From NCBI GenBank assembly GCA_020160935.1, contig JAIUPL010000036.1, forward strand, positions 1-52,566: 52,566 nucleotides of DNA, given 5' to 3'. Both the position numbers and the translations under genes were made by a program. The notes beneath the pieces were generated by a model, which saw nothing but the letters and a program-made list of their open reading frames with translations, was not told the DNA's origin and searched no databases. Source of the DNA: Bacteroidota bacterium (GTDB lineage: Bacteria; Bacteroidota; Bacteroidia; Chitinophagales; Saprospiraceae). This document shows positions 679 to 46,887 of the stretch, piece after piece. Position 1 is the first letter of the stretch. Each line of letters opens with the position of its first letter.

Positions 679-1248
679 ATGCCAGTTAAAAAAATTGAAA
701 AACGCGAACTCCTGCAGCGCTGCTGGGAAGTGTTTCATCGCCACGGATACCACGGCACTTCGGTGAGCATGCTGGCCGAAGCGACCGGGCTTGGAAAATC
801 GGGCCTGATGCACCACCACCTGTCGAAAGAAAGCCTGATGCGCGCCGTGGTGGAATACGCACAGGACGCCATGCGCGAGATTGTTTTTTCCGTAGCGAAA
901 GAAAACCTGCCGCCCGAACAGCGGCTCGAAAAACTGTTGCGCCGCCAGAATCGACTTGCCAAATACGAACGTCGCGGCTGCTTTTTTGCCAATACTGCCC
1001 TGGAAACCGGCCGCGACGAACTGTTCAACGAACCCATTCAGGCCATTTGGGAAGAATGGAAAGCCACTGTGGCCGACATTCTGACGAGTATCATGCCGCT
1101 TGAAACCGCTCAAAAGACTGCTTATCGCCTCCTTTGCGAATATGAAGGCGCTATTATCATGTATAAAATCAGCAACGACGAACAGCACCTCGAGCAATTT
1201 GTGAAAAGAGCAGTAGAGGTATTTGGCGGAAGGGTTGATAAAGGTTGA
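679..1248 (+). CDS. TetR/AcrR family transcriptional regulator
   Basis: The 189-residue protein has the usual TetR layout. An N-terminal helix-turn-helix at about residues 8-52 carries the family signature (RCWEVFHRHGYHGTSVSML ... TGLGKSGLMHHHLSKESLM), followed by an all-helical ligand-binding domain. It is a one-component repressor acting on DNA in the cytoplasm; the ligand cannot be told from sequence. The ATG lies 20 bases after a TAnnTTTG promoter box and next to a palindrome, so it probably represses itself. The alpha/beta hydrolase downstream is a plausible target. The last residues RVDKG and the stop codon are encoded by the first units of the GTTGAT repeat array at 1232, which suggests the array replaced the original C-terminus. 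Confidence 0.9.
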   Translation: MPVKKIEKRELLQRCWEVFHRHGYHGTSVSMLAEATGLGKSGLMHHHLSKESLMRAVVEYAQDAMREIVFSVAKENLPPEQRLEKLLRRQNRLAKYERRGCFFANTALETGRDELFNEPIQAIWEEWKATVADILTSIMPLETAQKTAYRLLCEYEGAIIMYKISNDEQHLEQFVKRAVEVFGGRVDKG

Positions 1249-1432
1249 TGAGGGTTGATATTCAGCCACTCTATGAAGGAAAATACAACCCTTACCTCGA
1301 GCCGCTTTTTATCAACCCTCATCAACCTTTATCAACCCTCATCAACCCTCATCAACCCCCATCAATCCTATCAACCCCCATCAACCCTATCAACCTCATC
1401 AACTTTATCAACCTCATCAACCCTCATCAACA
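1232..1432. repeat. Tandem-unit inverted array, GTTGAT family (copy 1)
   Basis: The left arm (about 1232-1258) consists of GTTGAT units, and the right arm (about 1312-1432) of the complement ATCAACC with spacers such as CTC, TTT and CTA, giving 7- to 10-base periods. The core between them (about 1259-1311) contains TATTCA, CCACTC and CGAGCCG, which recur in copies at 8614 and 46702. The left arm contributes the TetR stop codon. The region encodes only low-complexity peptide in any frame. Confidence 0.85.
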
Positions 1433-1449
1433 CTTACCCATCTCCCTCC

Positions 1450-2370
1450 ATGCAGCAACTCATCATCAAAGTCATCGGCCTGGGGCTCAACCTGTGGTCG
1501 CTCGTAGCGCCTCAACAAGCCGCCCGAATGGCTGTGCAGGTATTTTCGCGCCCGCCCAAGCCGCAGGTACGCGAAAAGGAACGCGCTTTTCTACAAACAG
1601 CCAGGCAAGTGCGCCGAAAAGTGGCCGGTCAAGACATCGTGGAATACCACTGGGGCCCCGATGAAGCACCGCTGGTGGTGGTCAGTTATGGCTGGGGATA
1701 CAATGCCGGGCGCTGGCGTTATTTTGTACCCGAACTGCTGCAAGCCGGATATCGGGTGCTGGCGTACGACCCGCCCGGGCATGGACTGGCGCCTGCTGGC
1801 ACCCTGAATATTCCTGCCAATGCGGCCATTTTAAAGGAATTGCTGGAAACCTACGGCCCTGCCGAAGCGCTGGTGGGGCACTCTTTTGGCGGCAGCAGTC
1901 TGGTGTATGCCTTGCATGACTTGCCCCGCACCTTGCATCCCAGGCGCATGGTAGTAATGGCTTCATTCAGTTATGCGCCGCGGGTTTTTATGGAATACAA
2001 AAAGACGCTGGGACTGTGGGGGCCGCTGTTCTGGAGCATGGTGCGGATGTTCGAAAAAAGAGTCGGCAAACCGCTGGATTACTATGATTTTGCAGTCATG
2101 ACATCAGCGTTCGAACATATCCACGGCCTGCTCATACATTCTCCCTCCGATACGGTGACGCCGTACGCAGAAGCCGTCCGCTACCACAATTTCTGGCCAG
2201 GCAGTCATCTATTCAGTCCCGACGAAGGCGGGCACCACCTCGGAACGGCAGGCATCACGCAGGCAGTTATGCAGTTTGTTCTGGAAGAAAAGGTTCCTGC
2301 ACCAGCCCAACGTCAGGAACGCCCCCTGATAGCGGAACACGAACTGGTGCAGCATTTTGCGGGACTGTGA
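1450..2370 (+). CDS. Alpha/beta hydrolase fold protein
   Basis: The 306-residue enzyme has the alpha/beta-hydrolase landmarks: an oxyanion region SYGWGYNAGRW near residues 78-88, the nucleophile elbow GHSFGG, and a late EGGHHLG that supplies the catalytic His. The family covers esterases, lipases and related hydrolases; the substrate is unknown. An open frame upstream to 1255 would add about 65 residues, but these are translated from the ATCAACC repeat array (runs of LSTSSTLIN), so the ATG at 1450 is the sensible start. The first 30 residues are fairly hydrophobic and may be a membrane-associated helix. The position after the TetR gene suggests control by that regulator. Confidence 0.85.
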   Translation: MQQLIIKVIGLGLNLWSLVAPQQAARMAVQVFSRPPKPQVREKERAFLQTARQVRRKVAGQDIVEYHWGPDEAPLVVVSYGWGYNAGRWRYFVPELLQAGYRVLAYDPPGHGLAPAGTLNIPANAAILKELLETYGPAEALVGHSFGGSSLVYALHDLPRTLHPRRMVVMASFSYAPRVFMEYKKTLGLWGPLFWSMVRMFEKRVGKPLDYYDFAVMTSAFEHIHGLLIHSPSDTVTPYAEAVRYHNFWPGSHLFSPDEGGHHLGTAGITQAVMQFVLEEKVPAPAQRQERPLIAEHELVQHFAGL

Positions 2371-2375
2371 GATTT

Positions 2376-2499
2376 AGTTATGAGTTTTAAAGTTATGAGT
2401 TATGAGTTATACTCACTTTGCTTTTGGCTTTTTAACAAGAGAGGCCAATAGCAAAGTGAGTATAACTCATAACTCATAACTTTAAAACTCATAACTCAT
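2376..2499. repeat. Heptamer inverted array, TTATGAG family (copy 1)
   Basis: Left-arm units are TTATGAG and right-arm units CTCATAA. The core arms read ACTCACTTTGCTTTTGGC and the near-complement GCAAAGTGAGT around a short loop. It lies between convergent genes and could terminate both. Copies with nearly the same core are at 36999 and 38567. Confidence 0.88.
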
Positions 2500-2503
2500 T
2501 CCC

Positions 2504-4987: not shown

Positions 4988-5092
4988 GGAAATTGATTCG
5001 AAATGTTAGGGCTGAAAAATTGTGTGGGTCAAAAGTGTGTCTAATTTTTTATTCAGGAAAAGAGGATATTTGGGCTTTAACCCGACTTTAAC

Positions 5093-5240
5093 TTGGTTAT
5101 TGGTTATTGGTTATTGGTTATTAGGGTGTTAAGGGTGCATCCATGATTTTTCCCGGCACCCCAAATTGAGCAGCCAAAAATTGATACTAATAAACCGTTA
5201 CCAACCCTCAATAACCAATAACTAATAACCAATAACTAAA
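5093..5240. repeat. Heptamer inverted array, TTGGTTA family
   Basis: The left arm at 5093-5130 is TTGGTTA repeated, and the right arm at 5205-5240 is CCAATAACTAATAA-type units. Unlike most copies it lies between divergent genes, so it cannot be a terminator for either. It ends two bases before the ATG of the PLP enzyme. The 60-base core contains no gene. Confidence 0.8.
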
Positions 5241-5241
5241 C

Positions 5242-6498
5242 ATGCACCCTTCCCGTCGCAGTTTCATCCGCCAGACCGCCACTTTGCTGGGCGCAATGGC
5301 TTTGCACCGCAACCCCGCTGCCGCATTTCCGATTGCCGAACTGCCCGAAAATACGCCGGAAGAAGATTTCTGGCGGCAGGTGCGACAGGCATATTCGGCC
5401 AGCCCTACCATCATCAACCTCAACAATGGCGGCGTGTGCCCTACCCCGCGTGCTACCCTCGACGCACTCGATTACTACAACCGCATGTGCGCCGAAGCGC
5501 CTTCGTACTACATGTGGCGCATTCTCGACCAGGACCGCGAGCCGCTGCGCGAAAATCTGGCAGCCCTGGCAGGGGTGCCGTCCGATGAAATCGCCATCAA
5601 TCGAAACACCACCGAAGCCCTGAATACCATCATTTTTGGCCTGCCCCTGACAGCCGGCGACGAAGTGGTGCTTTCGCGCTTCGACTACCCCAATATGATG
5701 AACGCCTGGAAACAACGCGAAGCCCGCGACGGTATCCGGCTGGTGTGGGTCGACCTGGACCTTCCTTCTGGCGACGAAGACTACCTGGTGGATGCCTTTG
5801 TTTCCAAAATAACGGAAAAAACCCGACTGGTACACCTCACCCATGTCATCAACTGGTGTGGGCAAATACTGCCCGTGCGGAAAATTGCCGACCGTGCCCA
5901 CGCCGCCGGCGCCGAAGTGCTCGTAGATGCCGCCCATTCCTTTGCAGTGCTCGACTACAAAATTCCGGACCTCGGCTGCGATTACTGGGGCACCAGCCTG
6001 CACAAGTTTTTGTGCGCACCGTTCGGTACCGGGCTGATGTGGATTCGCAAGGAAAAAATCTCGCGCATCTGGCCACTGCTCTCAAACGACCAGCCCGACA
6101 GCGACAATATCCGGAAATTTGAATCACTCGGCACCCGTAGTTTCCCCACAGAAATGGCGATTGGCTATTCGCTTGATTTACACAACTTTATAGGCCCGCG
6201 CCGCAAACAGGAACGCCTGCATTTCCTGAAAAACTACTGGATGGAACGCGTACAGGATGTGCCCGGTATCCGTTTTTACACCAACCCTGATCCGAAATGG
6301 AGTTGCGCCATCGGCAATTTCGGCCTGGAAGGCTGGAAATGCACGGAAATCGCCGGTCAGTTGTTCGACAAATGGAAAATTCACACCACCACCATCGACT
6401 GGCAAAAAATCAACGGCGTGCGCGTTACCCCCAATGTGTACACCACGACCGATGAACTGGACAAGTTGGTGCGGGCTGTGAAGGGGTTGAAGAAGTAG
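5242..6498 (+). CDS. Tat-exported class V aminotransferase-fold PLP enzyme
   Basis: The 418-residue protein begins with a twin-arginine signal (PSRRSFIRQ followed by a hydrophobic stretch to about residue 28), so it is probably exported folded with its cofactor. The body is the aminotransferase class V fold: D229 in LVDAAHS should pair with the pyridine nitrogen, and K255 in SLHKFL is the expected Schiff-base lysine. Relatives are often annotated as isopenicillin N epimerase-like or cysteine desulfurase-like, but neither activity can be assigned. The ATG follows directly on a repeat array, and the stop is immediately followed by another. A periplasmic PLP enzyme is uncommon but known in this group. 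Confidence 0.85.
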   Translation: MHPSRRSFIRQTATLLGAMALHRNPAAAFPIAELPENTPEEDFWRQVRQAYSASPTIINLNNGGVCPTPRATLDALDYYNRMCAEAPSYYMWRILDQDREPLRENLAALAGVPSDEIAINRNTTEALNTIIFGLPLTAGDEVVLSRFDYPNMMNAWKQREARDGIRLVWVDLDLPSGDEDYLVDAFVSKITEKTRLVHLTHVINWCGQILPVRKIADRAHAAGAEVLVDAAHSFAVLDYKIPDLGCDYWGTSLHKFLCAPFGTGLMWIRKEKISRIWPLLSNDQPDSDNIRKFESLGTRSFPTEMAIGYSLDLHNFIGPRRKQERLHFLKNYWMERVQDVPGIRFYTNPDPKWSCAIGNFGLEGWKCTEIAGQLFDKWKIHTTTIDWQKINGVRVTPNVYTTTDELDKLVRAVKGLKK

Positions 6499-6770
6499 GC
6501 AAGGGGCAAGGGGCAAAAGGCAAGGGGCAAAAAAACAAGAGGCAAGGGGCAAAGGGCAAGGGGCAAGGGGCAAAAGGCAAAGGGCATTTAAAGTGTAAAT
6601 TTATTTAAAGTATTGAAAAACTACCCCTTGCCCTTTGCCTCTTGTTTTTTGCCCTTTGCCCTTTGCCCCTTGCCCCTTGCCCCTTGCCTCTTGTTTTTTT
6701 GCCCCTTGCCCCTTGCCCTTTGCCTCTTGTTTTTTTGCCCCTTGCCCCTTGCCCCTTGCCTCTTGCCCCT
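6499..6770. repeat. Heptamer inverted array, GGCAAGG family
   Basis: The left arm at 6499-6588 contains GGCAAGG and GGCAAAA units; the right arm at 6625-6770 contains the complement CTTGCCC and TTTGCCC, with interspersed TCTTGTTTTTTT. The core is an AT-rich stretch of about 35 bases. The array begins right after the stop codon of the PLP enzyme and runs into the promoter of the next gene, to which it appears to supply the -33 element. Confidence 0.88.
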
Positions 6771-6778
6771 TACCTTTG
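6749..6778 (+). promoter_or_regulatory. PaaG-like gene promoter partly built from repeat array
   Basis: TACCTTTG at 6771-6778 matches TAnnTTTG exactly. A TTG at 6749-6751 lies 19 bases upstream, the usual -33/-7 spacing in Bacteroidota, and is part of a CTTGCCC repeat unit. Transcription should begin near 6785, about 22 bases before the ATG at 6807. Confidence 0.6.
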
Positions 6779-6806
6779 GCCTGCCTTTTTCAACACAACT
6801 GAATTC

Positions 6807-7583: not shown

Positions 7584-7587
7584 GTTT

Positions 7588-7775
7588 TGTTATCGGTTAT
7601 CTGTTATCAGTTATCAGGGTGGTACAACTTGGTACTGATTCGATTCAATAACGTGATCCCAGGAATAAACGCCCTACAAATAATCCAATTTATTCCACGC
7701 CCTACCTCATAGCACAAAAAAAGTACCCATGCCTCCCTACCACCCTGATAACCAATAACTAATAACCGATAACTA
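7588..7775. repeat. Heptamer inverted array, GTTATCA family
   Basis: The left arm is GTTATCG/GTTATCT/GTTATCA units continuing into AGGGTGGTA; the right arm starts TACCACCCTGATAAC and continues with CCAATAA/CTAATAA/CCGATAA units, so the outer stem is long and nearly perfect. The core of about 115 bases has no gene. The array is followed eight bases later by the GTG start of the lysozyme gene. Confidence 0.82.
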
Positions 7776-7782
7776 ATTCGTT

Positions 7783-8613: not shown

Positions 8614-8802
8614 GGGTTGATGGGGGTTGATAAAGGTTGATGAGTGTTGATGAGGGTTGATGAGTGTTGATATTCATCGGCTCGATGAAGTGAAAAATCT
8701 TCCTACCCGAGCCGATGAATATCAACCCTCATCAACCTTTATCAACCTCATCAACCTTTATCAACCCTATCAACCTCATCAACCTCATCAACCCTATCAA
8801 CC
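8614..8802. repeat. Tandem-unit inverted array, GTTGAT family (copy 2)
   Basis: The left arm begins at the base after the lysozyme stop codon (GGGTTGATGGGGGTTGAT) and the right arm is ATCAACC units. The core contains an exact inner stem, ATTCATCGGCTCG with complement CGAGCCGATGAAT, the cleanest version of the core shared with copies at 1232 and 46702. Confidence 0.88.
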
Positions 8803-8891: not shown

Positions 8892-9380
8892 ATGAAAAAA
8901 ACATTTCTCTTCGTGTTTGTTTGCCTGCTGGCAACTTCCGTATTCGCCCAAAAGAAAAGCCTGCCTTCTGCCAATGTAAAAACCTTGCAAGGCCAATCCC
9001 TGAACGTTCAGGAACTCGGCAAAAGCGGTAAAATCACCGTGATCAGTTTCTGGGCTACCTGGTGCTCCCCCTGCAAAAAAGAACTCGATGCCATCAAGGA
9101 CTACTATGCCGACTGGCAAAAAGACTACGGCGTGGAACTCGTGGCCATCAGCGTAGACGATGCCCGCACCGCCGCCAAAATTCCGGCTATGATTGAAGAA
9201 AAAGGCTGGGAATACCGTGTCCTGCTCGACGCCAACAAGGAGTTTCAGCAAACAGCCAATGTCACCTCCGTACCGCATACCATCCTGCTCGACGCTTCGG
9301 GCAATGTGGTGTTCGAACACGTGGGCTACAGTCCGGGAGATGAACTGGAACTGGAAGAACAGATTAAAGCAATAAAATAA
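8892..9380 (+). CDS. TlpA-family periplasmic thioredoxin-like protein
   Basis: The 162-residue protein has a cleavable signal peptide (MKKTFLFVFVCLLATSVFAQ) and a TlpA/ResA-type thioredoxin fold. The redox centre is W57-C58-S-P-C61, and the cis-proline region is SVPHTILLD. Such proteins reduce disulfides outside the cytoplasm, often in cytochrome c maturation or cell-envelope repair, fed by a membrane electron donor. The upstream ATG at 8838 would put 18 polar residues before the signal peptide and precede the promoter box at 8852, so 8892 is preferred. Repeat arrays lie on both sides; no operon partner is adjacent. Confidence 0.9.
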   Translation: MKKTFLFVFVCLLATSVFAQKKSLPSANVKTLQGQSLNVQELGKSGKITVISFWATWCSPCKKELDAIKDYYADWQKDYGVELVAISVDDARTAAKIPAMIEEKGWEYRVLLDANKEFQQTANVTSVPHTILLDASGNVVFEHVGYSPGDELELEEQIKAIK

Positions 9381-9514
9381 GTCCTGAGTCGTAAGTCCTG
9401 AGTCCTGAGTCTGTAGAGTACACCTGCTTATGTTTGGCATTTATTTTAATTGACGCCAAACATAAGCAGGTGTACTCTACAGACTCAGGACTCAGGACTT
9501 ACGATTCAGGACTT
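9381..9514. repeat. Heptamer inverted array, AGTCCTG family (copy 1)
   Basis: The left arm is AGTCCTG/AGTCGTA units starting immediately after the stop codon, and the right arm is CAGGACT units. The inner stem is exceptionally long: GTCTGTAGAGTACACCTGC continuing to TTATGTTTGGC, with an exact complement after a short AT loop. Copies are at 41768 and, degenerate, at 44820. Confidence 0.9.
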
Positions 9515-12578: not shown

Positions 12579-12728
12579 GATTTATGATTGCCGATTACAT
12601 GATTTAAGATTTAAGATTGGATTTTTGATGGGAGATTTTTTGATCGAGTACATTTTTTTAAATCAAAAATCTTCCATCAAAAATCCAATCTTAAATCTTA
12701 AATCATGTAATCTTAAATCTTAAATCAA
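12579..12728. repeat. Heptamer inverted array, ATTTAAG family
   Basis: The left arm ATTTATG/ATTTAAG units start at the stop codon of the acyl-CoA hydrolase gene and the right arm is CTTAAAT units. An inner stem pairs GATTGGATTTTTGATGG with CCATCAAAAATCCAATC. It lies between convergent genes. Confidence 0.85.
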
Positions 12729-13232: not shown

Positions 13233-13470
13233 TTTTTATGTAATTGGAAGAATGCTGTGTTGTTTCAACACTGCAAAAATCAACCAAAAAGAAGGCAGAT
13301 TGCTATGACGGGCGTCAGTAAAAGATATGATCTGAGGCTAACTTCATTCGACTGCCCTTGGTCGGTGGCCGCAGTTGGCGTCCTCGCTAACTACCAGGTA
13401 GCGATGGAAATTTTAGTTCACGTGAGTAGTTGTTAAGGAGACCGAATACGACCACACCTTCGACCATAAA

Positions 13471-13549
13471 CCTTAAAACCGACCATCAAAGTCCTGCTAC
13501 GCCTCCGTAAACTTCGGCTCGCTTGGACATTTGATGGTCGGTTTTAAGG
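13471..13549. repeat. Perfect 20-bp inverted repeat in a gene-free stretch
   Basis: The gap 13222-13697 between the Hsp20 and VOC genes holds no gene. CCTTAAAACCGACCATCAAA at 13471-13490 is exactly complementary to 13530-13549, and GTCC/GGAC extends the stem inward after a one-base bulge. The loop of about 30 bases contains CTACGCCTCCG and CTTCGGCTCG. A smaller palindrome CTACCAGGTAG is near 13391. No promoter for either neighbour could be assigned. Confidence 0.8.
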
Positions 13550-13590
13550 TCAAAAAAATAGACCTGACACAGAAATCTGAACACTACCTG

Positions 13591-13697
13591 GTAGAGCGGT
13601 ACACTCTACGGACTCTCACTCTCTCACCTTTCACTCTCTCACCTCTCACTCTCTCACTCTCTCACTCTCTCACCTCTCACTCTCTCACTTCTCACTT
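13591..13697. repeat. One-armed chimeric array, GTGAGAG family with AGTCCTG-family core
   Basis: Only a right arm is present: TCTCACT/TCTCACC heptamer-like units from about 13614 to 13697. In front is GTAGAGCGGTACACTCTACGGACT, resembling the core of the AGTCCTG family (copies at 9381 and 41768). The array ends at the stop codon of the VOC gene. Confidence 0.75.
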
Positions 13698-16862: not shown

Positions 16863-17047
16863 GGTTGTTGAGTTGGTTGAGAGGTGGAGTTGGTTGAGAG
16901 GTTGAGTGGGTTGAGGAGTTGAGAGGCAAAATCCTCATTACTCCCTTTACTCTCTCCTTCAACCCACTCAACTCCTCAACTCCTCAACCACTCAACCCCT
17001 CAACCCTCTCAACTCCTCAACCAACTCCACCCCTCAACCAACTCAAC
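16863..17047. repeat. Tandem-unit inverted array, GTTGAG family, inside the ccoNOQP operon
   Basis: The left arm is GTTGAG-based units (GGTTGTTGAGTTGGTTGAGAGG) and the right arm CAACTCCT/CAACCCCT units, with GTGGGTTGA pairing with TCAACCCAC near the core. It begins four bases after the ccoNO stop and ends 17 bases before ccoQ. As an RNA hairpin it could set subunit ratios by protecting or ending transcripts; that is inference. Confidence 0.8.
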
Positions 17048-17064
17048 ATTCAATTTCAATCAAC

Positions 17065-18480: not shown

Positions 18481-20001
18481 ATGTCATCCGAATTCACACA
18501 GCCCCAATGGGAAGATACTGAAGAATATCGCGACCACATCGCGACTGTAGACCAGACGGGCAAGCGCATTTGGCTGTACCCGAAGAAGCCCTCAGGCAAG
18601 TTTTATAATGCTCGGACGTGGGTGAGTTTTATATTTCTGGTCATTTTTCTGACGGTACCTTTCATTCGGGTGGGCGGAGAGCAATTCCTTTTGTTCAATG
18701 TACTGGAAAGGAAATTTGTCCTGTTCGGGCTGGTGTTTACCCCGCAGGATTTCCACCTGTTTGTGTTGGCGATGCTCACATTTCTGGTGTTTATTATCCT
18801 GTTTACAGTAGTGTATGGCAGGCTTTTTTGTGGCTGGGTTTGCCCTCAAACGGTTTTTATGGAAATGTTTTTCCGAAAAATCGAATACTGGATCGAAGGC
18901 ACTGTCAGCGAACAGCGCAAACTTGATAAAAGCCCCTGGACTGCTGAAAAGATCAGAAAAAAAGGATTGAAGCACTTGGTGTTCTTCACCATTTCTGTAG
19001 TCGTTTCCAACTACTTTCTTGCCTATATCATTGGAACGGAAAAAGTATTGGCTATCATACGCGAGCCCGTAGGCCAACACATTGGCGGCTTTATTGCAAT
19101 GCTTGTATTTTCCGGTTTGTTCTACGGCGTATTTGCCCGCCTGCGTGAACAGGTTTGCACCACGATTTGTCCATATGGTCGCCTTCAAAGTGTACTGCTC
19201 GTCAAGGAATCGATCGTTGTCGCCTACGATTTTGTACGAGGTGAACCACGGGGCAAATTGAAAAAAGCAGCCGCTCCCCGCCCCGTTGAGGCATCCTACG
19301 TACCGGTTGCTGCCGCAGACCCTGCCGAATCTATCCGCACCGCTGTGGCAGGTGCCTCCACCGATCTAAAAAACCCGCAACCTGCACTGGGCGATTGCAT
19401 TGATTGTGGTTTGTGCATCGCTGTGTGCCCAACAGGCATCGACATCCGCAACGGTACCCAACTGGAATGTACCAACTGCACGGCTTGTATCGACGCCTGC
19501 GATGAGGTAATGGTAAAGGTACACAAGCCCAAAGGCCTGATTCGATATGATTCTATGACTGGTATTGAATCAGGACGCCGCAAAATTTTCACCACGCGTG
19601 TCTACGCCTACACGGCTGTGCTGGTCGCGCTGCTGGCCCTCGACGTGTTCCTGCTGGCCCGCCGGGGTGATATTGAATCGATCATTTTGCGCTCGCCAGG
19701 GCAGCTGTACCAGCAAAAAGATGAAACGCATCTGACTAATTTGTACACCTACATTTTAATCAATAAAACCAACAAAGATTTGCCGGTTGAAATGATTCTT
19801 GAAAACAAGAGCGGCAAAATCACTTTGGTAGGCAAAGCCCCTGGAAATATCCCGAAAGGAGGTAAAGCAGAAGGCGCATTCTTTATTGAAATGCCTATGG
19901 ATCAATTGGTTGGGCGCAAAACTCCATTGCATATCGACATTGTTTCGAATGGCAAAAAAATCGACGATGTGGAAACGAATTTTATGGGACCGGCTAAGTA
20001 G
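18481..20001 (+). CDS. ccoG: cbb3 oxidase accessory ferredoxin-like protein CcoG
   Basis: The 506-residue protein matches CcoG (RdxA/FixG). It has four to five membrane helices, Cys motifs CGWVCPQ and CTTICPYG in the membrane part, a two-cluster ferredoxin domain (CIDCGLCIAVCPTG and CTNCTACIDACDE), another helix, and a C-terminal immunoglobulin-like domain. CcoG reduces Cu(II) for delivery to the oxidase active site. It starts a second transcription unit behind its own FNR-like promoter. The stop codon is followed at once by a one-armed GTGAGAG repeat array and by GC-rich hairpins before ccoH. Confidence 0.95.
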   Translation: MSSEFTQPQWEDTEEYRDHIATVDQTGKRIWLYPKKPSGKFYNARTWVSFIFLVIFLTVPFIRVGGEQFLLFNVLERKFVLFGLVFTPQDFHLFVLAMLTFLVFIILFTVVYGRLFCGWVCPQTVFMEMFFRKIEYWIEGTVSEQRKLDKSPWTAEKIRKKGLKHLVFFTISVVVSNYFLAYIIGTEKVLAIIREPVGQHIGGFIAMLVFSGLFYGVFARLREQVCTTICPYGRLQSVLLVKESIVVAYDFVRGEPRGKLKKAAAPRPVEASYVPVAAADPAESIRTAVAGASTDLKNPQPALGDCIDCGLCIAVCPTGIDIRNGTQLECTNCTACIDACDEVMVKVHKPKGLIRYDSMTGIESGRRKIFTTRVYAYTAVLVALLALDVFLLARRGDIESIILRSPGQLYQQKDETHLTNLYTYILINKTNKDLPVEMILENKSGKITLVGKAPGNIPKGGKAEGAFFIEMPMDQLVGRKTPLHIDIVSNGKKIDDVETNFMGPAK

Positions 20002-20050
20002 AGAGAGGTGAGAGGTGAGAGAGTGAGAGGTGAGAGGTGAGAGGGTGAGA
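20002..20050. repeat. One-armed array, GTGAGAG family
   Basis: Units GAGAGGT/GAGAGTG run from the base after the ccoG stop. There is no complementary arm nearby; instead a GC-rich repeat with the motif TAGCCCTGAAAGGGCG follows at 20071. Confidence 0.8.
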
Positions 20051-20070: not shown

Positions 20071-20155
20071 TAGCCCTGAAAGGGCGTATACAATAGCCCA
20101 GGGCAACGCCCTGGGTATCCGATCACCCATTTATTTGTTCGGGCAACGCCCCGGA
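20071..20155. repeat. GC-rich palindromic repeat, GCCCTG family (copy 1)
   Basis: Three hairpins follow each other: GCCCTGAAAGGGC, CCCAGGGCAACGCCCTGGG, and CGGGCAACGCCCCGG. The first two recur at 29665 beside another GTGAGAG array. They resemble dispersed REP-like elements of this phylum. They lie in the ccoG-ccoH gap (20002-20228), which has no gene. Confidence 0.8.
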
Positions 20156-23128: not shown

Positions 23129-23338
23129 ATGAAAAAGAACATGGGTTCCACCGACAGAATCGTACGCATCGTGCTTGCCATCGTTTTTGCTGCACTGTAT
23201 TTCACCGGCACCGTAACCGGACTGGCCGGTACCATCCTGTTGGTATTGGGCGCCGTATTTGTACTCACCAGCCTGGTCAGTTTCTGCCCGCTGTATGCCA
23301 TTGTAGGCCTGTCGACCTGCCCGACTACGGAAAAGTAG
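23129..23338 (+). CDS. DUF2892 (YgaP-type) small membrane protein
   Basis: The 69-residue protein matches DUF2892, the membrane part of YgaP. MGSTDRIVRIVLAIVFAALYF forms the start of the first helix, a Gly-rich turn TGLAGTILLVLGAVFVLTSL makes the second, and the ending FCPLYAIVGLSTC carries the conserved Cys-Pro-Leu-Tyr. Family members often sit with rhodanese or sulfur-transfer genes and are frequent targets of Crp/Fnr regulators in this phylum. It is probably co-transcribed with the 32-residue peptide. The stop codon is followed at once by a short GACAGTC repeat array. Confidence 0.9.
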   Translation: MKKNMGSTDRIVRIVLAIVFAALYFTGTVTGLAGTILLVLGAVFVLTSLVSFCPLYAIVGLSTCPTTEK

Positions 23339-23373
23339 ACAGTTGACAGTCGACAGTCATCAGTCGACAGTCG
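23339..23373. repeat. Short heptamer array, GACAGTC family
   Basis: Units ACAGTTG, ACAGTCG, ACAGTCATCAGTCG and ACAGTCG fill the whole 36-base gap between two convergent genes. There is no second arm, although CGACTG/CAGTCG is partly self-complementary. Confidence 0.7.
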
Positions 23374-28090: not shown

Positions 28091-29587
28091 CTACCCCATT
28101 GCTTTTAGCGCTTGCCGATTGATTTTTCCCGTATCATTTTTGGGTAACCCGGAAATGAATGCCACACTTTTGGGGATTTTGAAGCGGGCAAGCCGGGTAC
28201 TGCAATACTCCAGCAAAGCCTGTTCTGAAAGGGATTGCCCGGGACGCAGCACGACAAATGCCTTACCCACTTCTCCCCATTTTTCATCGGGCGCGGGAAT
28301 CACAGATGCTTCAGCCACAGCAGGGTGTGTTATCATAACACGTTCTATTTCAGCAGGATATACGTTTTCGCCGCCCGAGATAAACATGTTTTTAATCCGA
28401 TCGACTACGTATATGTATTGCTCCTCATCCTGCCGAACCAGGTCGCCCGTATGAAACCAGCCGCCATCCAGGGCCTTGCGAGTTGCTTCGCGATTGCGCC
28501 AGTAACCAGGCGTCACCATAGGCCCGCGCAACAGCAGTTCGCCAGGCTCGTTGGGAGGGCAATCCTGACCGTTTTCATCGACAATTCGGATATCTACATA
28601 ATAATTCGGGCGTCCGATAGATCCCCGTTTCCGCACTGCATCGCTTTGGTGGAGTGAAGTGAGGTTGGGGCCCACTTCGGTCATGCCATACCCCTGTCGG
28701 ATCAGTACACCTTTTTCATGCCATTTCTCGATCAGTGGCACCGGCATGGGCTCTCCGCCAACGATGATATACAGCAATGACGAAAAATCCGCCTGCTCGA
28801 AACCGGGTTCGTCAGCCAGCATTTTGAGCATGGTTGGCACGCCCATAAACAGGGTACATTGTTCGCTTTGCAGCAGCTGCAACACCGCAGCAGGTTCAAA
28901 TTTTTTCATCAGGCAGGTGTATCCGCCATGGTGAAAAAACGGCGTTGTCAGCACATTCCAGCCTCCCGTATGAAAAGGCGGCATCACATTCACTGTCCTG
29001 CTTTCTGTGTTGACAATCAGTGACATTGCAGTGTTGATGCTGTTCCAAAACATCATTTTATGCGTGTACAGAGCGCCTTTGGGGAAGCCCGTCGTACCGG
29101 AGGTGTACAGGATAAAAACGGGGTCATTTTCCCGGATGATCGCTTCCGGAAAGAAGCCATCGAAATCGGTTGAGATGGCCTTGTCGCAAAAAGCAGCCAG
29201 GTCTTCCAGCGACCAGCGTCGACGCAATTTGGAATAATACGGCGCCGCATCGAGCAAGTGTTGGAATTTGGACTCTCCGATGACCAGTCTAGGTTGCGCA
29301 TCCAGCAACAAATAGTCAATTTCCGCACCGGAGAGCCGGTAGTTGAGCGGCACCAGGATGCAGCCTGTTTTTTGCGCTGCTGCAAATAGAATCAGGTACT
29401 CCAGACAATTTTCACCCAATACTGCCACCCGGTCTCCCCTTTTCACCTTGAACACCGAAACCAGGTGGTGCGCCAGGCGATTACCCAGGCGATTGAGTTC
29501 ACCGAAGGTCAGGGTGCGCCCGGTTTCGTATTCCTTAAAAGCGATTTTGTCGGGGCTATACAGCGCCCATTTGGAAGACCAGTCCAT
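28091..29587 (-). CDS. AMP-forming acyl-CoA synthetase/ligase
   Basis: The 498-residue enzyme is an ANL-superfamily acyl-CoA ligase. Landmarks in order: the AMP-binding loop YTSGTTGFPKG (about residues 172-182), PPFHTGGWNVL, GYGMTEVGP, the hinge GWFHTGDL, and the catalytic-lysine motif PKNDTGKINRQAL near the C-terminus. It activates a carboxylic acid with ATP and CoA in the cytoplasm; medium- or long-chain fatty or aromatic acids are likely. The next gene upstream on the strand is the KAS III-like protein, and the receptor, hydrolase and symporter follow, which suggests it activates an imported acid. A GTGAGAG repeat array abuts its start codon. Confidence 0.9.
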   Translation of the reverse strand: MDWSSKWALYSPDKIAFKEYETGRTLTFGELNRLGNRLAHHLVSVFKVKRGDRVAVLGENCLEYLILFAAAQKTGCILVPLNYRLSGAEIDYLLLDAQPRLVIGESKFQHLLDAAPYYSKLRRRWSLEDLAAFCDKAISTDFDGFFPEAIIRENDPVFILYTSGTTGFPKGALYTHKMMFWNSINTAMSLIVNTESRTVNVMPPFHTGGWNVLTTPFFHHGGYTCLMKKFEPAAVLQLLQSEQCTLFMGVPTMLKMLADEPGFEQADFSSLLYIIVGGEPMPVPLIEKWHEKGVLIRQGYGMTEVGPNLTSLHQSDAVRKRGSIGRPNYYVDIRIVDENGQDCPPNEPGELLLRGPMVTPGYWRNREATRKALDGGWFHTGDLVRQDEEQYIYVVDRIKNMFISGGENVYPAEIERVMITHPAVAEASVIPAPDEKWGEVGKAFVVLRPGQSLSEQALLEYCSTRLARFKIPKSVAFISGLPKNDTGKINRQALKAMG

Positions 29588-29590
29588 GGT

Positions 29591-29658
29591 AGAGAGTGAG
29601 AGCGTGAGAGAGGTGAGAGAGTGAGAGAGTGAGAGCGTGAGAGAGGTGAGAGAGGTGT
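29591..29658. repeat. One-armed array, GTGAGAG family, upstream of ligase
   Basis: GAGAGTG, AGAGCGT and GAGAGGT units start four bases upstream of the ligase ATG. No complementary arm is nearby; the GCCCTG palindromic repeat follows at 29665. Confidence 0.8.
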
Positions 29659-30734: not shown

Positions 30735-30752
30735 AAAAGAAAAATGGAACGG

Positions 30753-30814
30753 CAGGAACCGGGCTGTGATTTTTAGCGGCCACATCAGCCATCAAAAACC
30801 ACAGCCGGCTCCTG
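30753..30814 (-). terminator. Large inverted repeat after TonB receptor gene, possible terminator
   Basis: The arm CAGGAACCGGGCTGTGATTT (30753-30772) pairs with ACCACAGCCGGCTCCTG (about 30798-30814), with A/T runs at the inner end. It lies between the TonB receptor stop and the KAS III-like start. The minus-strand T run comes about ten bases after the stem, so it may attenuate rather than fully stop transcription. Confidence 0.5.
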
Positions 30815-30836
30815 TTTGCAACAATTGTATGAAGTG

Positions 30837-36998: not shown

Positions 36999-37125
36999 AG
37001 TTATGAGTTATGAGTTATGAGTTATGAGTTTTACTCACTTTGCTTTTGGCTTTGCTAATAAAGTAGCCACAAGCAAAGTGAGTAAAACTCATAACTCATA
37101 ACTCATAACTCACAACTCATAACTC
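36999..37125. repeat. Heptamer inverted array, TTATGAG family (copy 2)
   Basis: AGTTATGAG units start at the base after the stop codon, and CTCATAA units end seven bases before the next ATG. The core reads ACTCACTTTGCTTTTGGC with complement GCAAAGTGAGT. This copy and the one at 38567 flank a single gene. Confidence 0.9.
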
Positions 37126-38562: not shown

Positions 38563-38566
38563 AAAG

Positions 38567-38688
38567 AGTTATGAGTTTTGGAGTTATGAGTTATGAGTTT
38601 TACTCACGTTGCTTTTGGCATCTTTGGTAGTGTGGCCAAAAGCAACGTGAGTAAAACTCATAACTCATAACTCCAAAACTCATAACTA
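38567..38688. repeat. Heptamer inverted array, TTATGAG family (copy 3)
   Basis: AGTTATGAG units on the left and CTCATAA units on the right, with core ACTCACGTTGCTTTTGGC and complement GCCAAAAGCAACGTGAGT. Both core arms carry the same compensating change (T to G, A to C) relative to copy 2, so base pairing is kept. The right end supplies the stop codon of the convergent response regulator gene. Confidence 0.9.
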
Positions 38689-39729: not shown

Positions 39730-39735
39730 AAGGCG

Positions 39736-39778
39736 CAAATGTATATCTGATGTTAGGATAGCAAAGTGATTTTTATCA
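39736..39778 (-). promoter_or_regulatory. FNR-like box and promoter of response regulator gene
   Basis: On the minus strand TGATAAAAATCA (39778-39767) is a perfect TGAT-N4-ATCA palindrome, and TACATTTG (39743-39736) is a full TAnnTTTG match. The TTG begins 40 bases after the palindrome's first base, the same spacing as at four other promoters. The regulator may act on its own gene. Confidence 0.68.
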
Positions 39779-39788
39779 TTTATTTCAA

Positions 39789-39832
39789 TAACGATGGTCA
39801 TTGAAAACCGGGGCGGCATCGGGTCACCTTTG
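39789..39832 (+). promoter_or_regulatory. Possible FNR-like box and promoter of CBS gene
   Basis: TAACGATGGTCA (39789-39800) fits TGAC-N4-GTCA with one change, and CACCTTTG (39825-39832) is a weak -7 box whose TTG lies 41 bases on, one more than at the other sites. An overlapping inverted repeat TTTCAAT/ATTGAAA spans 39783-39806. Confidence 0.4.
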
Positions 39833-39867
39833 TACCATACCTGATGATTGAACAAACCTCTTACATT

Positions 39868-40338: not shown

Positions 40339-40449
40339 GTTGCAGGGGCTTGTATAAGTAGTAACAGGTGGCATGGATGTCGTTCTTGAAGGGTAATGAC
40401 ACCTGATTTGAGGGCCTTAAAAGCCCGAAAAACTCAAAAAATAGCAACA

Positions 40450-41661: not shown

Positions 41662-41727
41662 AGATATAAAGGTGTAGACAACTGCCTCCGTTTGCACCTG
41701 TAAGTACTATGCAAGAGGGTTTTGTTC

Positions 41728-41768
41728 ACCCCGCTGAGAGTTATCTTTCTGGCGGGGTATTTTTTTTA
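41728..41768 (+). terminator. Rho-independent terminator of the USP fusion gene
   Basis: ACCCCGC (41728-41734) pairs with GCGGGGT (41752-41758), followed by A and eight T. The next array starts at 41768. Confidence 0.88.
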
Positions 41769-41902
41769 GTCCTGAGTCGACAGTCCTGAGTCCTGAGTCC
41801 GTAGAGTTGACCTATATGCTTTCGGCATTCTTTTTTGAAAAAGTCAAAAGCAAATAGGTCAACTCTACGGACTCAGGACTCAGGACTGTCGACTCAGGAC
41901 TT
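41768..41902. repeat. Heptamer inverted array, AGTCCTG family (copy 2)
   Basis: AGTCCTG units on the left, CAGGACT units on the right, and an inner stem GTCCGTAGAGTTGACCTAT with its exact complement. Its right end encodes the last serine and stop codon of the histidine kinase. Confidence 0.9.
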
Positions 41903-43426: not shown

Positions 43427-43493
43427 GGCGTGAAGATCATAATAAATCACAAATGAAGAAAACTTTCACAAAATGCGCTTGTTTGGTGCTGTC

Positions 43494-44840
43494 ATGAACA
43501 TACCTGTTTCTATTTTCTGGTTTCGGCGCGACCTTCGCCTGCACGACAACGCTGGCCTGTACCGCGCATTAAAAAGCACTTTTCCGGTGTTGCCGCTGTT
43601 TATTTTTGACCACAACATCCTGGACGACCTGAGTGACCGGTCAGATGCACGTGTTTCTTTTATCTACCAAAGTCTGGAAAGCCTGAAAACGGAACTGGAA
43701 CAACTCGGGAGCAGCCTGCTTGTGCTGAATGGACAACCTGAGCAGATTTGGCCGGAATTGTTGCAGCAATACAACGTTGGCGCCGTATACACCAACCACG
43801 ATTTTGAGCCCTATGCCATTCAACGGGATGCACAGGTAAAAGAATTGCTTGCCGAGCAAAACATCCCGCTCCATACCTTCAAAGATCATGTGATTTTTGA
43901 AAAAAACGAGGTGCTGAAATCGGATGGAACCCCGTACACGGTGTTTACCCCATACAGCCGGCGCTGGCTGGAAAAACTCGACACCAGGATTGTAAAAACC
44001 GTTGAAGGCCAGGAAACCAGTTTTTACCTCCACTCCTACCCTGTTGAAAAGTATTTTCACAATTTGCTCAAAACCAACCCTTTGTCCATGCCTTCCCTGG
44101 CCGACATCGGTTTTGAACCCACATCCATCAGTATTCCGCCAGCTTCTGTGGCACGCGGGTTGATCCGCAACTACGACAAAACCCGCGACTTTCCGGCCAT
44201 CGATGGCACCTCCCGGCTCGGTATTCATTTCCGCTTCGGCACCATCAGTATCCGGGAAAAAGCGCGTGCTGCCCGCGAACTGAACGGCACCTTTCTCAAC
44301 GAACTCATCTGGCGCGATTTTTACAGCCAGATTCTGGCCCATTTCCCGCACGTGGCAGGGCATGCTTTTCGGGCCCAATACGATCAAATCGCCTGGCGAA
44401 ACGAACCAGAAGATTTTGAAAAATGGTGCGCTGGTCGAACAGGCTACCCCATCGTCGACGCGGGTATGCGCCAACTGAATACCACCGGCTATATGCACAA
44501 CCGCGTGCGAATGATTGTGGCGAGTTTTCTGACCAAACACCTGCTGCTCGACTGGCGTCTCGGAGAGGCTTATTTTGCAGAAAAACTGCTCGACTTCGAC
44601 CTCGCCAGCAACTCCGGTGGCTGGCAATGGGCAGCCGGTTGCGGCACGGACGCTGCACCCTATTTCCGGATTTTCAACCCCACAGAACAAGCCAAAAAAT
44701 TTGACCCGGAATTCAAATACATCCGCCGTTGGGTGCCGGAGTTTGGCACCCCCAAATATCCGAAGCCTATGGTGGAGCATGTATTTGCGAGGGAACGATG
44801 TTTGGAAACGTATAAAAGTGTCCTAAGTCCTAAGTCCTGA
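43494..44840 (+). CDS. Deoxyribodipyrimidine photolyase/cryptochrome family protein
   Basis: The 448-residue protein has the photolyase N-terminal alpha/beta domain (SIFWFRRDLRLHDNAGLYRA) and the FAD-binding helical domain with TSRLGIHFRFGTISIRE, ELIWRDFYSQI, GRTGYPIVDAGMRQLNTTGY and NRVRMIVASFLTKHLLLDWR. These match CPD photolyases, which repair UV-induced pyrimidine dimers using blue light; Trp residues of the electron chain lie in SGGWQWAAG. A cryptochrome role is less likely but not excluded. The ATG at 43494 is preferred to 43473. The end VLSPKS is translated from AGTCCTA repeat units, so the natural C-terminus near CLETYK has been overwritten. The gene is divergent from the histidine kinase. 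Confidence 0.93.
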   Translation: MNIPVSIFWFRRDLRLHDNAGLYRALKSTFPVLPLFIFDHNILDDLSDRSDARVSFIYQSLESLKTELEQLGSSLLVLNGQPEQIWPELLQQYNVGAVYTNHDFEPYAIQRDAQVKELLAEQNIPLHTFKDHVIFEKNEVLKSDGTPYTVFTPYSRRWLEKLDTRIVKTVEGQETSFYLHSYPVEKYFHNLLKTNPLSMPSLADIGFEPTSISIPPASVARGLIRNYDKTRDFPAIDGTSRLGIHFRFGTISIREKARAARELNGTFLNELIWRDFYSQILAHFPHVAGHAFRAQYDQIAWRNEPEDFEKWCAGRTGYPIVDAGMRQLNTTGYMHNRVRMIVASFLTKHLLLDWRLGEAYFAEKLLDFDLASNSGGWQWAAGCGTDAAPYFRIFNPTEQAKKFDPEFKYIRRWVPEFGTPKYPKPMVEHVFARERCLETYKSVLSPKS

Positions 44841-44959
44841 GTCCTGAGTCAGTGGAGGAAAAGCATAATTTGTTTTTTCTTCCTTCATTTTTTCCATCCT
44901 GCCCTTCAAATGCCCTACTTTGCAACGACTCAGGACTTAAGACTCAGGACTCAGGACTT
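44820..44959. repeat. Heptamer inverted array, AGTCCTG family (degenerate copy)
   Basis: AGTCCTA/AGTCCTG units start inside the photolyase gene, and CAGGACT units run up to three bases before the nucleoside phosphorylase ATG. The core of about 85 bases has lost the inner stem of the family's other copies. A TACTTTG near 44916, one base short of the -7 consensus, could be the promoter of the next gene. Confidence 0.82.
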
Positions 44960-44961
44960 CT

Positions 44962-45828
44962 ATGAATTCTTCCGAACTAATTCTCAATGCCGACGGCAGC
45001 ATTTACCACCTGCACCTGCATCCCGAACAGGTATCGCCGCTCATTATCACTGTAGGCGACCAGGATCGGGTAGCCAAAGTAAGCCGCTACTTCGACCGGA
45101 TAGAGCACCGTGTGCGCAAACGGGAGTTTGTAACCCATACAGGCTGGCTGGGAAAACAACGTATTACCGTCATTTCTACCGGCATCGGGCCCGATAATGT
45201 GGACATCGTGCTCAACGAACTGGATGCGCTGTTCAACATAGACCTGACAACGCGACAGGTAAAACCACGGCTACGACAACTGACCTTCATTCGACTTGGC
45301 ACAGCGGGCTGCTTGCAAGCGGAAGTGCCCGTAGATGCTTTGGTGGCCAGCAATGGCGCCATTGGTATGGACGGGCTGCTGCAATTTTATCGGGCGCCGG
45401 AGCAACAGCAGCATCCGCTGCTCGATGCATTGCGCCGTCATACAGCCGAAAAGTGGACCTTCCCCGTAGCACCTTATTTTGTGGAAACAGCCCCGGAACT
45501 GTTGTCGAAGTTTGCCGATTTCCATCAGGGCATCACCGCCACCAATCCGGGTTTTTATGGCCCGCAAGGTCGGCAGTTGCGCGCAACGGTTGCGCAGCCC
45601 CAATACCTGGATTTATTGCAATCCTTTGATTACCAAGGCAGAAAAATTGTGAATCTGGAAATGGAAACGGCGGCTATGTACGGACTTTCGCAAATGCTGG
45701 GGCACCGGGCCATTTCCATCAGCGCCATTCTTGCCAACCGGGCGCTCGGGCAATTCAGCCAGAATCCGGCGCGCAGCGTCAAACACTTGATCAAAACAGT
45801 CATGGAGAAAATTTCACATGGAATTTAA
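44962..45828 (+). CDS. Nucleoside phosphorylase
   Basis: The 288-residue enzyme is of the PNP/UDP phosphorylase family. HLHPEQVSPLIITVGDQDRV leads to the phosphate-binding region, STGIGPDNVDIVLNEL is the conserved glycine-rich segment, LGTAGCLQ follows, and the ribose-binding NLEMETAAMYGLSQMLGH closes the site. It splits purine or uridine nucleosides with phosphate in salvage, in the cytoplasm; the base specificity is not certain. The start follows a repeat array directly. The next gene begins 60 bases after its stop. Confidence 0.9.
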   Translation: MNSSELILNADGSIYHLHLHPEQVSPLIITVGDQDRVAKVSRYFDRIEHRVRKREFVTHTGWLGKQRITVISTGIGPDNVDIVLNELDALFNIDLTTRQVKPRLRQLTFIRLGTAGCLQAEVPVDALVASNGAIGMDGLLQFYRAPEQQQHPLLDALRRHTAEKWTFPVAPYFVETAPELLSKFADFHQGITATNPGFYGPQGRQLRATVAQPQYLDLLQSFDYQGRKIVNLEMETAAMYGLSQMLGHRAISISAILANRALGQFSQNPARSVKHLIKTVMEKISHGI

Positions 45829-45888
45829 GTATAATCCACTACTTTCACCTGCGTTATCAAAAACCGTTTTTCAACAAACTCTACCATT

Positions 45889-46323
45889 ATGAAATCACTC
45901 TTTTTATCCCTGAAAATCAACACCTTCAGCCTGTTGGTGGGCCTGTCCATCGCAGCATCTGCGGCCCTGCTTCCCGCCTGTATGGCGCCGTACGACGCGA
46001 TGGGCACGGAATACGTCAACAGTATTTCCACCAAACTGCCTGCCCTGATGAACAAAGCCACCGAAGCTTACAGCAAACATGAAACAGAAGTTAGCAGCCT
46101 GAACAGCGAACTCGACAAAGTGGTGGCCCATGCCGCATCGATGAAAAAAAACAAGGAAGTAGCCGAATCCTGGAGACTCTTGCAAACAGACCTCGTAGCG
46201 CCGTTTATCGCCCGCTGGAAAGACAAGGGAAAACTCGACAAGGATTTTATCAAGGAAGCCACCATGCAGGTCACGAAAAGCCTGGATGCTATCAAACGTG
46301 CTGAAGCAGCCAAAAAGAAATAA
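45889..46323 (+). CDS. Hypothetical lipoprotein
   Basis: The 144-residue protein has a lipoprotein-type signal (FSLLVGLSIAASAALLPAC, Cys31), then a helical region rich in Lys, Glu and Ala (NKATEAYSKHETEVSSLNSE) resembling a coiled coil. It should be anchored to a membrane facing the periplasm. I recognise no family. The gene 46 bases downstream encodes another small helical protein, and the two may act together. Confidence 0.65.
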   Translation: MKSLFLSLKINTFSLLVGLSIAASAALLPACMAPYDAMGTEYVNSISTKLPALMNKATEAYSKHETEVSSLNSELDKVVAHAASMKKNKEVAESWRLLQTDLVAPFIARWKDKGKLDKDFIKEATMQVTKSLDAIKRAEAAKKK

Positions 46324-46369
46324 ATAATTGAAAATCAATCTTTTAAACACACTATAAAACCAACGAAAC

Positions 46370-46705
46370 ATGCCAGGAAAAGGTCAGGAAATACAGGATG
46401 CGCTGGACGGGCTGGACAACCAGATCACCGCCATGGTATCCGACTTTGTACGCCGCCGCCGTAAACACTACGAAGAGGCCGCCCAGCGCTTGCACAACAG
46501 CCTGAAAAAAGATGTGCGTCGCTATGGCGAAATGCTTGCTGATAAAAAGATCAACCAGGAAGATTTCGAAATGCTGGTTCAAGGCCGTATGACACAGGTA
46601 AAAATTGAACTGCTGTCGGAATTATCGGTTTCCAAGGCCAAGTTTGAAGACATCGCCATGGAGATATTGAAACTGACGTTTAAGACGTTGTTGGTGGTGA
46701 TTTGA
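46370..46705 (+). CDS. Small helical hypothetical protein
   Basis: The 111-residue protein is highly charged and helical (FVRRRRKHYEEAAQRLHNSL, KKINQEDFEMLVQGRMTQVK) and probably cytoplasmic. The last codons (LVVI and stop) run into the first bases of the GTTGAT repeat array, so its original end may be altered. No family is recognised. It lies directly after the lipoprotein gene and probably shares its transcript. Confidence 0.6.
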   Translation: MPGKGQEIQDALDGLDNQITAMVSDFVRRRRKHYEEAAQRLHNSLKKDVRRYGEMLADKKINQEDFEMLVQGRMTQVKIELLSELSVSKAKFEDIAMEILKLTFKTLLVVI

Positions 46706-46887
46706 TGAGGTTGATGAAGGTTGATGAGGGTTGATGAAGGTTGATGAGGGTTGATGAAGGTTGATGAGGGTTGATATTCAACCACTCGACTAGTGAAGAA
46801 ATCTCACCTTACCCCGAGCCGCAACTTATCAACCCTCATCAACTCTCATCAACCCTCATCAACCTTTATCAACCCTCATCAACCCCC
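46702..46887. repeat. Tandem-unit inverted array, GTTGAT family (copy 3)
   Basis: The left arm is alternating GTTGATGAAG and GTTGATGAGG units, and the right arm ATCAACCCTC/ATCAACTCTC units. The core has TATTCAACCACTCGA and CCGAGCCG, as in copies at 1232 and 8614. Frames through it give only [15 protein letters not shown] peptide. Confidence 0.88.

Follow-up and report, generated by a model that had tools for sequence, protein, structure and literature searches.

Two-armed palindromes built of heptamer arrays in the gene gaps of a Saprospiraceae genome, their changing repeat families and a possible link to SbcCD loss

Heptamer repeats of the STRR type are reportedly found in cyanobacteria (Mazel et al. 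are said to have described them in 1990), and units of similar size make up the elements described here, which lie in the gene gaps of a 52,566-nt window (the whole stretch of DNA analysed) of a Saprospiraceae genome (assembly GCA_020160935.1). The window is contig 10 (JAIUPL010000036.1) in a genome of 5.84 Mb and 51 contigs, and the nearest named relatives, judged from one protein, are metagenome-assembled Saprospiraceae.

Several described repeat systems come close, and they are compared here through the available parts of the papers cited. Xanthomonas and Nostoc have mostly intergenic heptamer arrays of the units GGGAATC / GGGGA(C/T)T; two Xanthomonas genomes contain 186 and 183 of these patterns, at mean distances of 28 nt (upstream gene) and 160 nt (downstream gene), and a majority of them are flanked by the same genes in the two species and vary in length and sequence (PMC4692102). 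The present elements share with these arrays and with STRR the tandem heptamer units, the high copy number and the mostly intergenic position; however, those systems are described as direct arrays, while most elements here are two-armed palindromes with a core, and here the unit family itself changes between species. TAACTGA repeats, which are direct, are described from Beggiatoaceae, from cyanobacteria and from five Bacteroidetes; in the genome chiefly studied, 169 sets are direct and a single repeat is indirect (inverted), the sense form mostly stands before start codons, and one reverse set directly follows a stop codon (PMC4679880). The GTTATCA array at 7588 in the window is, in tandem form, the reverse complement of tandem TAACTGA, and the orientation near genes agrees, although paired inverted arms and many further words occur here.

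Repetitive extragenic palindromic (REP) sequences are reported to be high-copy, 3'-biased palindromes which sometimes give a stop codon; their units are 20-40 bp with a GTAG or CGTC tag, and G.T pairing is taken as a sign of transcription (PMC3733652). Like REP, BIME and REPIN sequences, the present elements are palindromic and abundant, lie mostly in convergent and co-directional gaps on the 3' side of genes, and may give stop codons. They are thus REP-like in behaviour, but fall outside the REP type in size and tag as tested (33-391 bp, with a GTAG-type tag in three families); the window elements are far longer than REP and BIME units, have arms of tandem words, carry no general GTAG-type tag and show no raised G.T pairing. 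In BrickBuilt, a miniature inverted-repeat transposable element of Porphyromonas gingivalis, transposon-like terminal repeats enclose a 23-bp direct array (PMC4596501). It likewise combines tandem units with inverted repeats in a Bacteroidota host, whereas here the array itself forms both arms and no target duplication was seen in the gaps compared. A full-text literature search, outside which most subscription papers fell, gave no recognised account of two-armed heptamer palindromes in Saprospiraceae or of a link to SbcCD loss.

An earlier note on the window had listed 18 arrays totalling ~2.5 kb, most of them two-armed, and Tandem Repeats Finder places an array at or within ~22 bp of every listed start (at 12601 and 13613 for the arrays of 12579 and 13591), while the extents, added by hand, sum to 2,557 bp. 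The units are mostly 7 bp long (AGTTATG, AGTCCTG, TTGGTTA, GGCAAGG, GTTATCA and others), so that the likeness to STRR in unit size does hold; other types are the 8-10 bp GTTGATGAGG, GTGAGAG and GGTTGAG. With a gap self-complementarity score of >=20 as the threshold, 14/18 arrays are two-armed palindromes (starts 1232, 2376, 5093, 6499, 7588, 8614, 9381, 12579, 16863, 36999, 38567, 41768, 44820 and 46702), the call for 44820 being marginal. The remaining 4/18 are one-armed, with scores of 11.5-14 for 20002, 23339 and 29591 and by reading for 13591, in whose gap the hairpin at 13470-13550 is a separate one. RNA folding of six window elements gave z values of -15 to -26, with 0/200 shuffles as good for each.

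The phenomenon is real, and it is larger than had been described. Two samples of the own genome were used, a biased set of 439 kb (the window plus 20 stretches picked at AGTTATG hits) and an unbiased set of 400 kb (20 stretches from six large contigs, placed irrespective of repeats), in which AGTTATG is if anything under-sampled because the biased stretches were avoided. In the biased set, 136 arrays scoring >=50 were found versus 0 in a second-order Markov shuffle, and 303 versus 74 at >=30; 218 of the 303 are mostly non-coding, and 133 of these 218 have a period of 7. An 18-mer AGTTATG pattern with <=1 mismatch matched the own genome 229 times forward and 198 times reverse (overlaps counted) and its reversed control not once, which disposes of the possibility, raised in the earlier note, that a genome-wide search would find no further copies. 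In the unbiased set, intergenic gaps of 40-1500 bp were surveyed with a hairpin counted at a score of >=30. N runs were masked, and in the counts for relatives 4 G006 gaps, 3 G035 gaps and 2 orthologous comparisons were skipped on their account. Long hairpins occur in 53/199 gaps of the unbiased set and in 0 after shuffling, which extrapolates to ~770 gap hairpins per genome; 41 of the 53 belong to repeat-word families and 12 lie outside, and therefore ~600 word-family elements per genome are estimated.

The anatomy of the elements was read from 153 own elements (53 unbiased, 87 from selected stretches and 13 from the window), 33-391 bp long and by eye mostly >80 bp. Hand-made word lists place 127 of them in 14 families, some perhaps related, and the other 26 include some ordinary hairpins. 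By reading, the unit of each main family goes together with a core particular to that family: the AGTTATG family has an ACTCAC-TTGCT-GGC stem, AGTCCTG arms go with GTAGAGTACACC, and GTTGATGAGG arms with ATTCAGCC/ATTCATCGG and CTCG. There are several unit families and not a single one, and the conserved core holds within one unit family and not across all 18 elements. Among 24 AGTTATG cores of equal length, columns 13/51 are Watson-Crick in 20/24 versus 8.2 expected from column make-up, columns 5/59 in 23 versus 16.4 and columns 19/45 in 17 versus 9.9; most stem columns are nearly invariant and hence uninformative on covariation, and the loop columns from 24/40 to 31/33 have no Watson-Crick excess. 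AGTTATG word clusters are two-armed in 26/28 cases in own-genome stretches versus 0/9 in G035, an SbcD-positive genome of another family with 118+146 exact pattern hits (one site counted twice and three near N runs among its nine clusters), and across 14 SbcD-negative genomes more than half of the arrays have an inverted partner (192/332, below), so that the separation from the one-directional STRR layout stands. The G006 genome, which may share the AGTTATG core, has 118+136 pattern hits, none of them within the 15 G006 stretches scanned.

Within an element, changes in sequence leave the two arms complementary to each other, and a slot tends to stay occupied between species while its repeat family gets replaced. 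Orthologous gaps were found via flanking-gene matches in four sister genomes (G043, G016, G006 and G047), and a hairpin scoring >=20 is present in 38/48 orthologues of element-bearing window gaps versus 8/56 orthologues of element-free gaps (odds ratio 23), or 35/45 versus 8/46 with divergent gaps removed. In 22/31 pairs with hairpins on both sides, <15% of 7-mers are common, and in the closest sister, G043, this is so for 3/8 pairs. Mean arm identity is 0.82 within one element versus 0.51 between orthologues, and in five orthologous pairs of the same family the values are 0.83 and 0.61. After the gene ending at 46705, for instance, the slot holds GTTGATGAGG in the window, GTGTTTTTG in G043, GTGTTTGGTG in G016 and GGTTTGATG in G047, each palindrome preceding a conserved leader (G006 is masked there). 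Retention of the slots could reflect selection for any hairpin, or these could be the only places which tolerate insertions.

SbcCD cleaves hairpins, and the available part of a study in E. coli gives as its target a 246-bp interrupted palindrome and not an 85-bp one during replication (PMC3315005). The SbcD profile TIGR00619, for which 13/14 well-known control genomes were positive, scored above cut-off in 18/80 genomes (the own genome and 79 relatives), at full length in 17 and marginally in G014. The SbcD_C domain PF12320 agrees, with 0/15 SbcD-negative versus 7/11 SbcD-positive genomes, although its control was positive in only 6/14. Many genomes that lack a full-length bacterial SbcD have frequent long inverted repeats, and the sampled SbcD-positive genomes have few: at a score of >=30 there are 132 in 1.20 Mb from 14 SbcD-negative genomes and 2 in 629 kb from 11 SbcD-positive ones. 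Arrays counted as two-armed when an inverted partner lies within 300 bp make up 192/332 in the former and 2/51 in the latter (six G035 arrays near N runs excluded), the AGTTATG arrays of the SbcD-positive G035 are one-armed (above), and gap hairpins occur in 5/118 gaps of the SbcD-positive congeners G008, G012 and G055. The P values given below are too small, because arrays or gaps were treated as independent. Synteny guided the choice of the G043, G016 and G047 stretches, and 2/3 G022 stretches were picked at repeat hits; several of the SbcD-positive genomes are represented by little sequence (G058 21 kb, G059 24 kb). G036 had zero usable bases and was omitted from the counts, no stretches were taken from G023, which was left out of the density tally, and G068, G031 and G067, with no full SbcD, stand outside the SbcD tallies with 1, 0 and 0 repeats in 20, 20 and 4 kb.

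The elements are strongly biased to gene 3' ends, and therefore a 3'-end function and a 3'-end tolerance are both still alive. In the unbiased set they occupy 21/32 convergent, 28/123 co-directional and 4/44 divergent gaps (odds ratio 19 for convergent versus divergent), and the congener G006 has 21/25, 31/76 and 3/25, respectively. The earlier note argued, from elements found between genes of every orientation, that terminator function alone would not explain them; orientation is not indifferent, however, and a pure terminator role is no more than a possibility. The 28 unbiased co-directional elements lie at a median of 8.5 nt from the stop codon and 70 nt from the next start, 17/28 being <=20 nt from a stop and 6/28 <=20 nt from a start, and some stop codons are supplied by an element arm (as at 1246-1248 and 44838-44840, Table 1). 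One-armed arrays of SbcD-negative genomes are G/T-rich on the coding strand near a stop in 39/56 cases and A/C-rich near a start in 47/54 (Fisher p 9e-10); the small numbers from SbcD-positive genomes are 8 G/T and 2 A/C near stops and 2 A/C near starts. Two-armed elements obey both gene-end orientation rules at once.

These observations are best joined by a reading to which we give an even chance, namely that STRR-like heptamer arrays were turned into long interrupted palindromes, tolerated after SbcCD loss, with copying at the DNA level and a slot at the 3' end. Most elements are built as an arm, a core hairpin specific to the family and a second arm complementary to the first, and loss of the SbcCD hairpin nuclease would have removed the barrier for palindromes of more than ~100 bp. 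The arms might arise at the DNA level, through copying of the hairpin or strand-switch kind together with exchange between copies, and keep their complementarity in the same way; the 3' slot would be where they do least harm, and there they might work as bulky hairpins at the 3' end and may assume the part of ordinary terminators. SbcCD loss is likely a permissive cause. A bolder version, which we hold tentatively and think a good deal less probable, is that SbcCD loss in part of the genus opened a genome-wide palindrome niche. Heptamer arrays that have one arm elsewhere would here have gained a second through fold-back copying, come to occupy most convergent gaps and displaced ordinary terminators as the structure at the 3' end, and they would be respelled continually because a slot passes on its symmetry but not its sequence.

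Several points weigh against the reading of tolerated palindromes after SbcCD loss. TIGR00619 has no match in the own genome (G000), but this absence is weak alone, because rpoB gives no match in the own assembly either (nominal completeness 97.9%), and the SbcD argument therefore rests on the sister genomes. Many other congeners have a partial SbcD match only, typically in a ~380 aa frame; such proteins of the SbcD-negative G043, G007 and G054 score best against archaeal Mre11 models, far below the cut-offs, with a Rad50-like neighbour (801 aa) in G043 only of these three, and such proteins might also cut hairpins. In 186 kb from four SbcD-negative congeners with small genomes there are 0 repeats of this kind, and the arrays of the SbcD-negative G007, G009 and G022 are two-armed in only 0/11, 2/13 and 2/13 cases, for which reasons SbcD loss looks permissive and not sufficient. 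The rpoB tree puts the SbcD-positive pair G008 and G004 inside an unresolved 12-genome group with palindrome-rich species; since the genomes are related and this key fork lacks resolution, few SbcD contrasts exist, and G004 adds only 23 kb. In addition, slot conservation may arise through tolerance alone, equal G.T and A.C counts (below) may be compatible with an RNA function, and no pair of a filled and an empty site with a clean target duplication was found among the gaps compared. As an observation on G043, its Mre11-like and Rad50-like genes, both best against archaeal models, are adjacent in L184 (2858-6432), and no full-length SbcD is present.

The alternative that survives best, though we regard it as rather doubtful, takes the elements as functional 3'-end RNA hairpins, either bidirectional terminators or mRNA 3' stabilisers, in which selection on RNA structure would keep slot and pairing while the sequence drifts. 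The strong convergent bias, the position next to stop codons, the very stable folds of the six window elements and the filling of one slot by different families across species all speak for it, but the elements are rare in the SbcD-positive congeners (G008, G012 and G055, above), which also need 3' ends. Selection on RNA pairing would give more G.U than A.C mismatches, and the counts are level, with 162 G.T versus 166 A.C in the transcribed strand of 81 own co-directional elements and 57 versus 48 in 34 G006 elements (150 N-N cells of the G006 table enter neither count). This favours generation at the DNA level, and RNA-level selection as the keeper of pairing was dropped on this flat wobble test.

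The evidence on termination is likewise divided. Intrinsic terminators have a GC-rich hairpin followed by a T-run, which is present on only 9/195 sides of convergent and co-directional element gaps. Convergent gaps have canonical terminators on 5/114 sides with an element versus 8/48 without (p 0.02), which hints, weakly and only in part, that an element can do the work of a terminator; however, the sides without an element split into 4/30 hairpin-free and 4/18 with a weak hairpin, and the latter favour terminators by definition. No such difference exists in co-directional gaps (4/81 sides with an element versus 8/200 hairpin-free), where 7/16 sides with a weak hairpin have a terminator. Moreover, the gap 41662-41893 keeps a T-tailed terminator-like hairpin beside its element in the own genome, G043, G016 and G047. 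In all four, this CCCCGC...GCGGGG hairpin with its T-run and a well conserved leader (41662-41767) directly precedes the palindrome.

Transposition offers another alternative, which we consider unlikely, in which REP/BIME- or MITE-type elements would be moved by a transposase (a RAYT-like HUH enzyme) acting on hairpins. Its appeal lies in the REP-like traits of high copy number, palindromy, 3' bias and occasional supply of stop codons (PMC3733652, in its available part) and in two Y1 transposase-domain genes of the own genome, in L058 and L059. Short tandem arrays lie near the L058 gene (1207-1276, 1371-1401 and an AGAAGTG array at 2629-2660), the last ~690 bp downstream of it and with a word resembling the GTGAGAG type, but the other L058 arrays are unlike the main families, none lies near the L059 gene, and with arrays this abundant an example <=700 bp from a Y1 gene is unremarkable. 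The idea of a dedicated transposase for each family was dropped, since the genome has no more than two Y1 domains and the word families drawn up by hand number fourteen, of which some are perhaps related. Three families regularly carry a GTAGAGT/GTAGCGT-type motif (AGTCCTG 14/16, GCAGAACTC 8/8 and GTGAGAG 7/7), but a scan for GTAG-type tags found it absent from most families. No clear target duplication was seen by eye in the gaps at 20002, 30735, 46324 and 50828 in up to four sisters, where matched stretches of the closest sister are only ~84-92% identical in DNA. On the other side, where G006 and G047 have their orthologues of the window gap 30735-30836, a terminator-like stem with its T-run intact holds a GTTGATGAGG palindrome in its loop, as might be expected if elements entered at hairpin loops. 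The hairpin pair that does lie beside a Y1 gene is of the Acido-Lenti-1-like type described below.

An assembly artefact from metagenome binning or chimeric inverted joins is very improbable, for although inverted chimeras are a known type of artefact and the named relatives are metagenome-assembled drafts, two-armed arrays occur in nine separately assembled genomes (among them G009, with 7 contigs, though only 2/13 of its arrays are two-armed), and random chimeras are ruled out as the source because slots are orthologous, cores family-specific and arms covarying.

Work on what limits long chromosomal palindromes has made use of an engineered one in E. coli (PMC3315005), and here a natural lineage carries an estimated several hundred palindromes per genome, most of them >80 bp. 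With a palindrome-rich lineage and near-empty relatives encoding a known hairpin nuclease, the question of palindrome limits therefore becomes testable by comparison and simple genetics. The swap of repeat families where the position is retained is also unusual as a way of evolving, since the symmetry of a site outlasts its sequence. The arrays of the window are collected in Table 1.

Table 1. Repeat arrays in the window; all rows rest on Tandem Repeats Finder plus hairpin scoring or reading, and the strand is given as '.' throughout.
Feature	Coordinates	Strand	Remark
GTTGATGAGG-type two-armed array	1233..1431	.	left arm gives stop codon (1246-1248) of upstream TetR gene
AGTTATG-type two-armed palindrome	2376..2499	.	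convergent gap; RNA fold tested
TTGGTTA-type two-armed array	5093..5239	.	divergent gap, adjoins start codon of 5242-6498
GGCAAGG-type two-armed array	6498..6771	.	
GTTATCA-type two-armed array	7588..7777	.	score 26.5
GTTGATGAGG-type two-armed array	8614..8802	.	begins right after stop codon; RNA fold tested
AGTCCTG-type two-armed palindrome	9378..9514	.	first bases are stop codon of gene ending 9380; RNA fold tested
GATTTAAG-type two-armed array	12579..12726	.	convergent gap
GTGAGAG-type one-armed array	13591..13696	.	core and right arm
GGTTGAG-type two-armed array	16866..17048	.	
GTGAGAG-type one-armed array	20001..20050	.	after stop codon; Acido-Lenti-1 hairpin also in gap
GACAGTC-type short one-armed array	23334..23373	.	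convergent gap
GTGAGAG-type one-armed array	29591..29654	.	upstream of start codon of minus-strand gene 28091-29587
AGTTATG-type two-armed palindrome	36999..37125	.	fills gap from stop to next start; RNA fold tested
AGTTATG-type two-armed palindrome	38566..38687	.	fills convergent gap; RNA fold tested
AGTCCTG-type two-armed palindrome	41768..41901	.	right after conserved terminator-like hairpin and T-run; RNA fold tested
AGTCCTG-type marginal two-armed array (score exactly 20)	44820..44958	.	gives stop codon (44838-44840) of photolyase gene 43473-44840
GTTGATGAGG-type two-armed array	46702..46885	.	between stop codon and conserved downstream leader

The gap of the one-armed array at 20002 also contains an Acido-Lenti-1 hairpin (20072-20115, 37.8 bits), and its orthologue in G043 is a gap of 23 bp with neither array nor hairpin. 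In L058, an inverted pair of Acido-Lenti-1-like hairpins (1273-1373 and 1486-1938) directly precedes the Y1 (IS200/RAYT-like) gene on its upstream side, in a REPIN-like layout with short tandem arrays on both sides of the pair. The two hairpins match Rfam RF01687 at 28-29 bits, short of the gathering score (37), and the Acido-Lenti-1 'RNA' may be a mobile palindrome.

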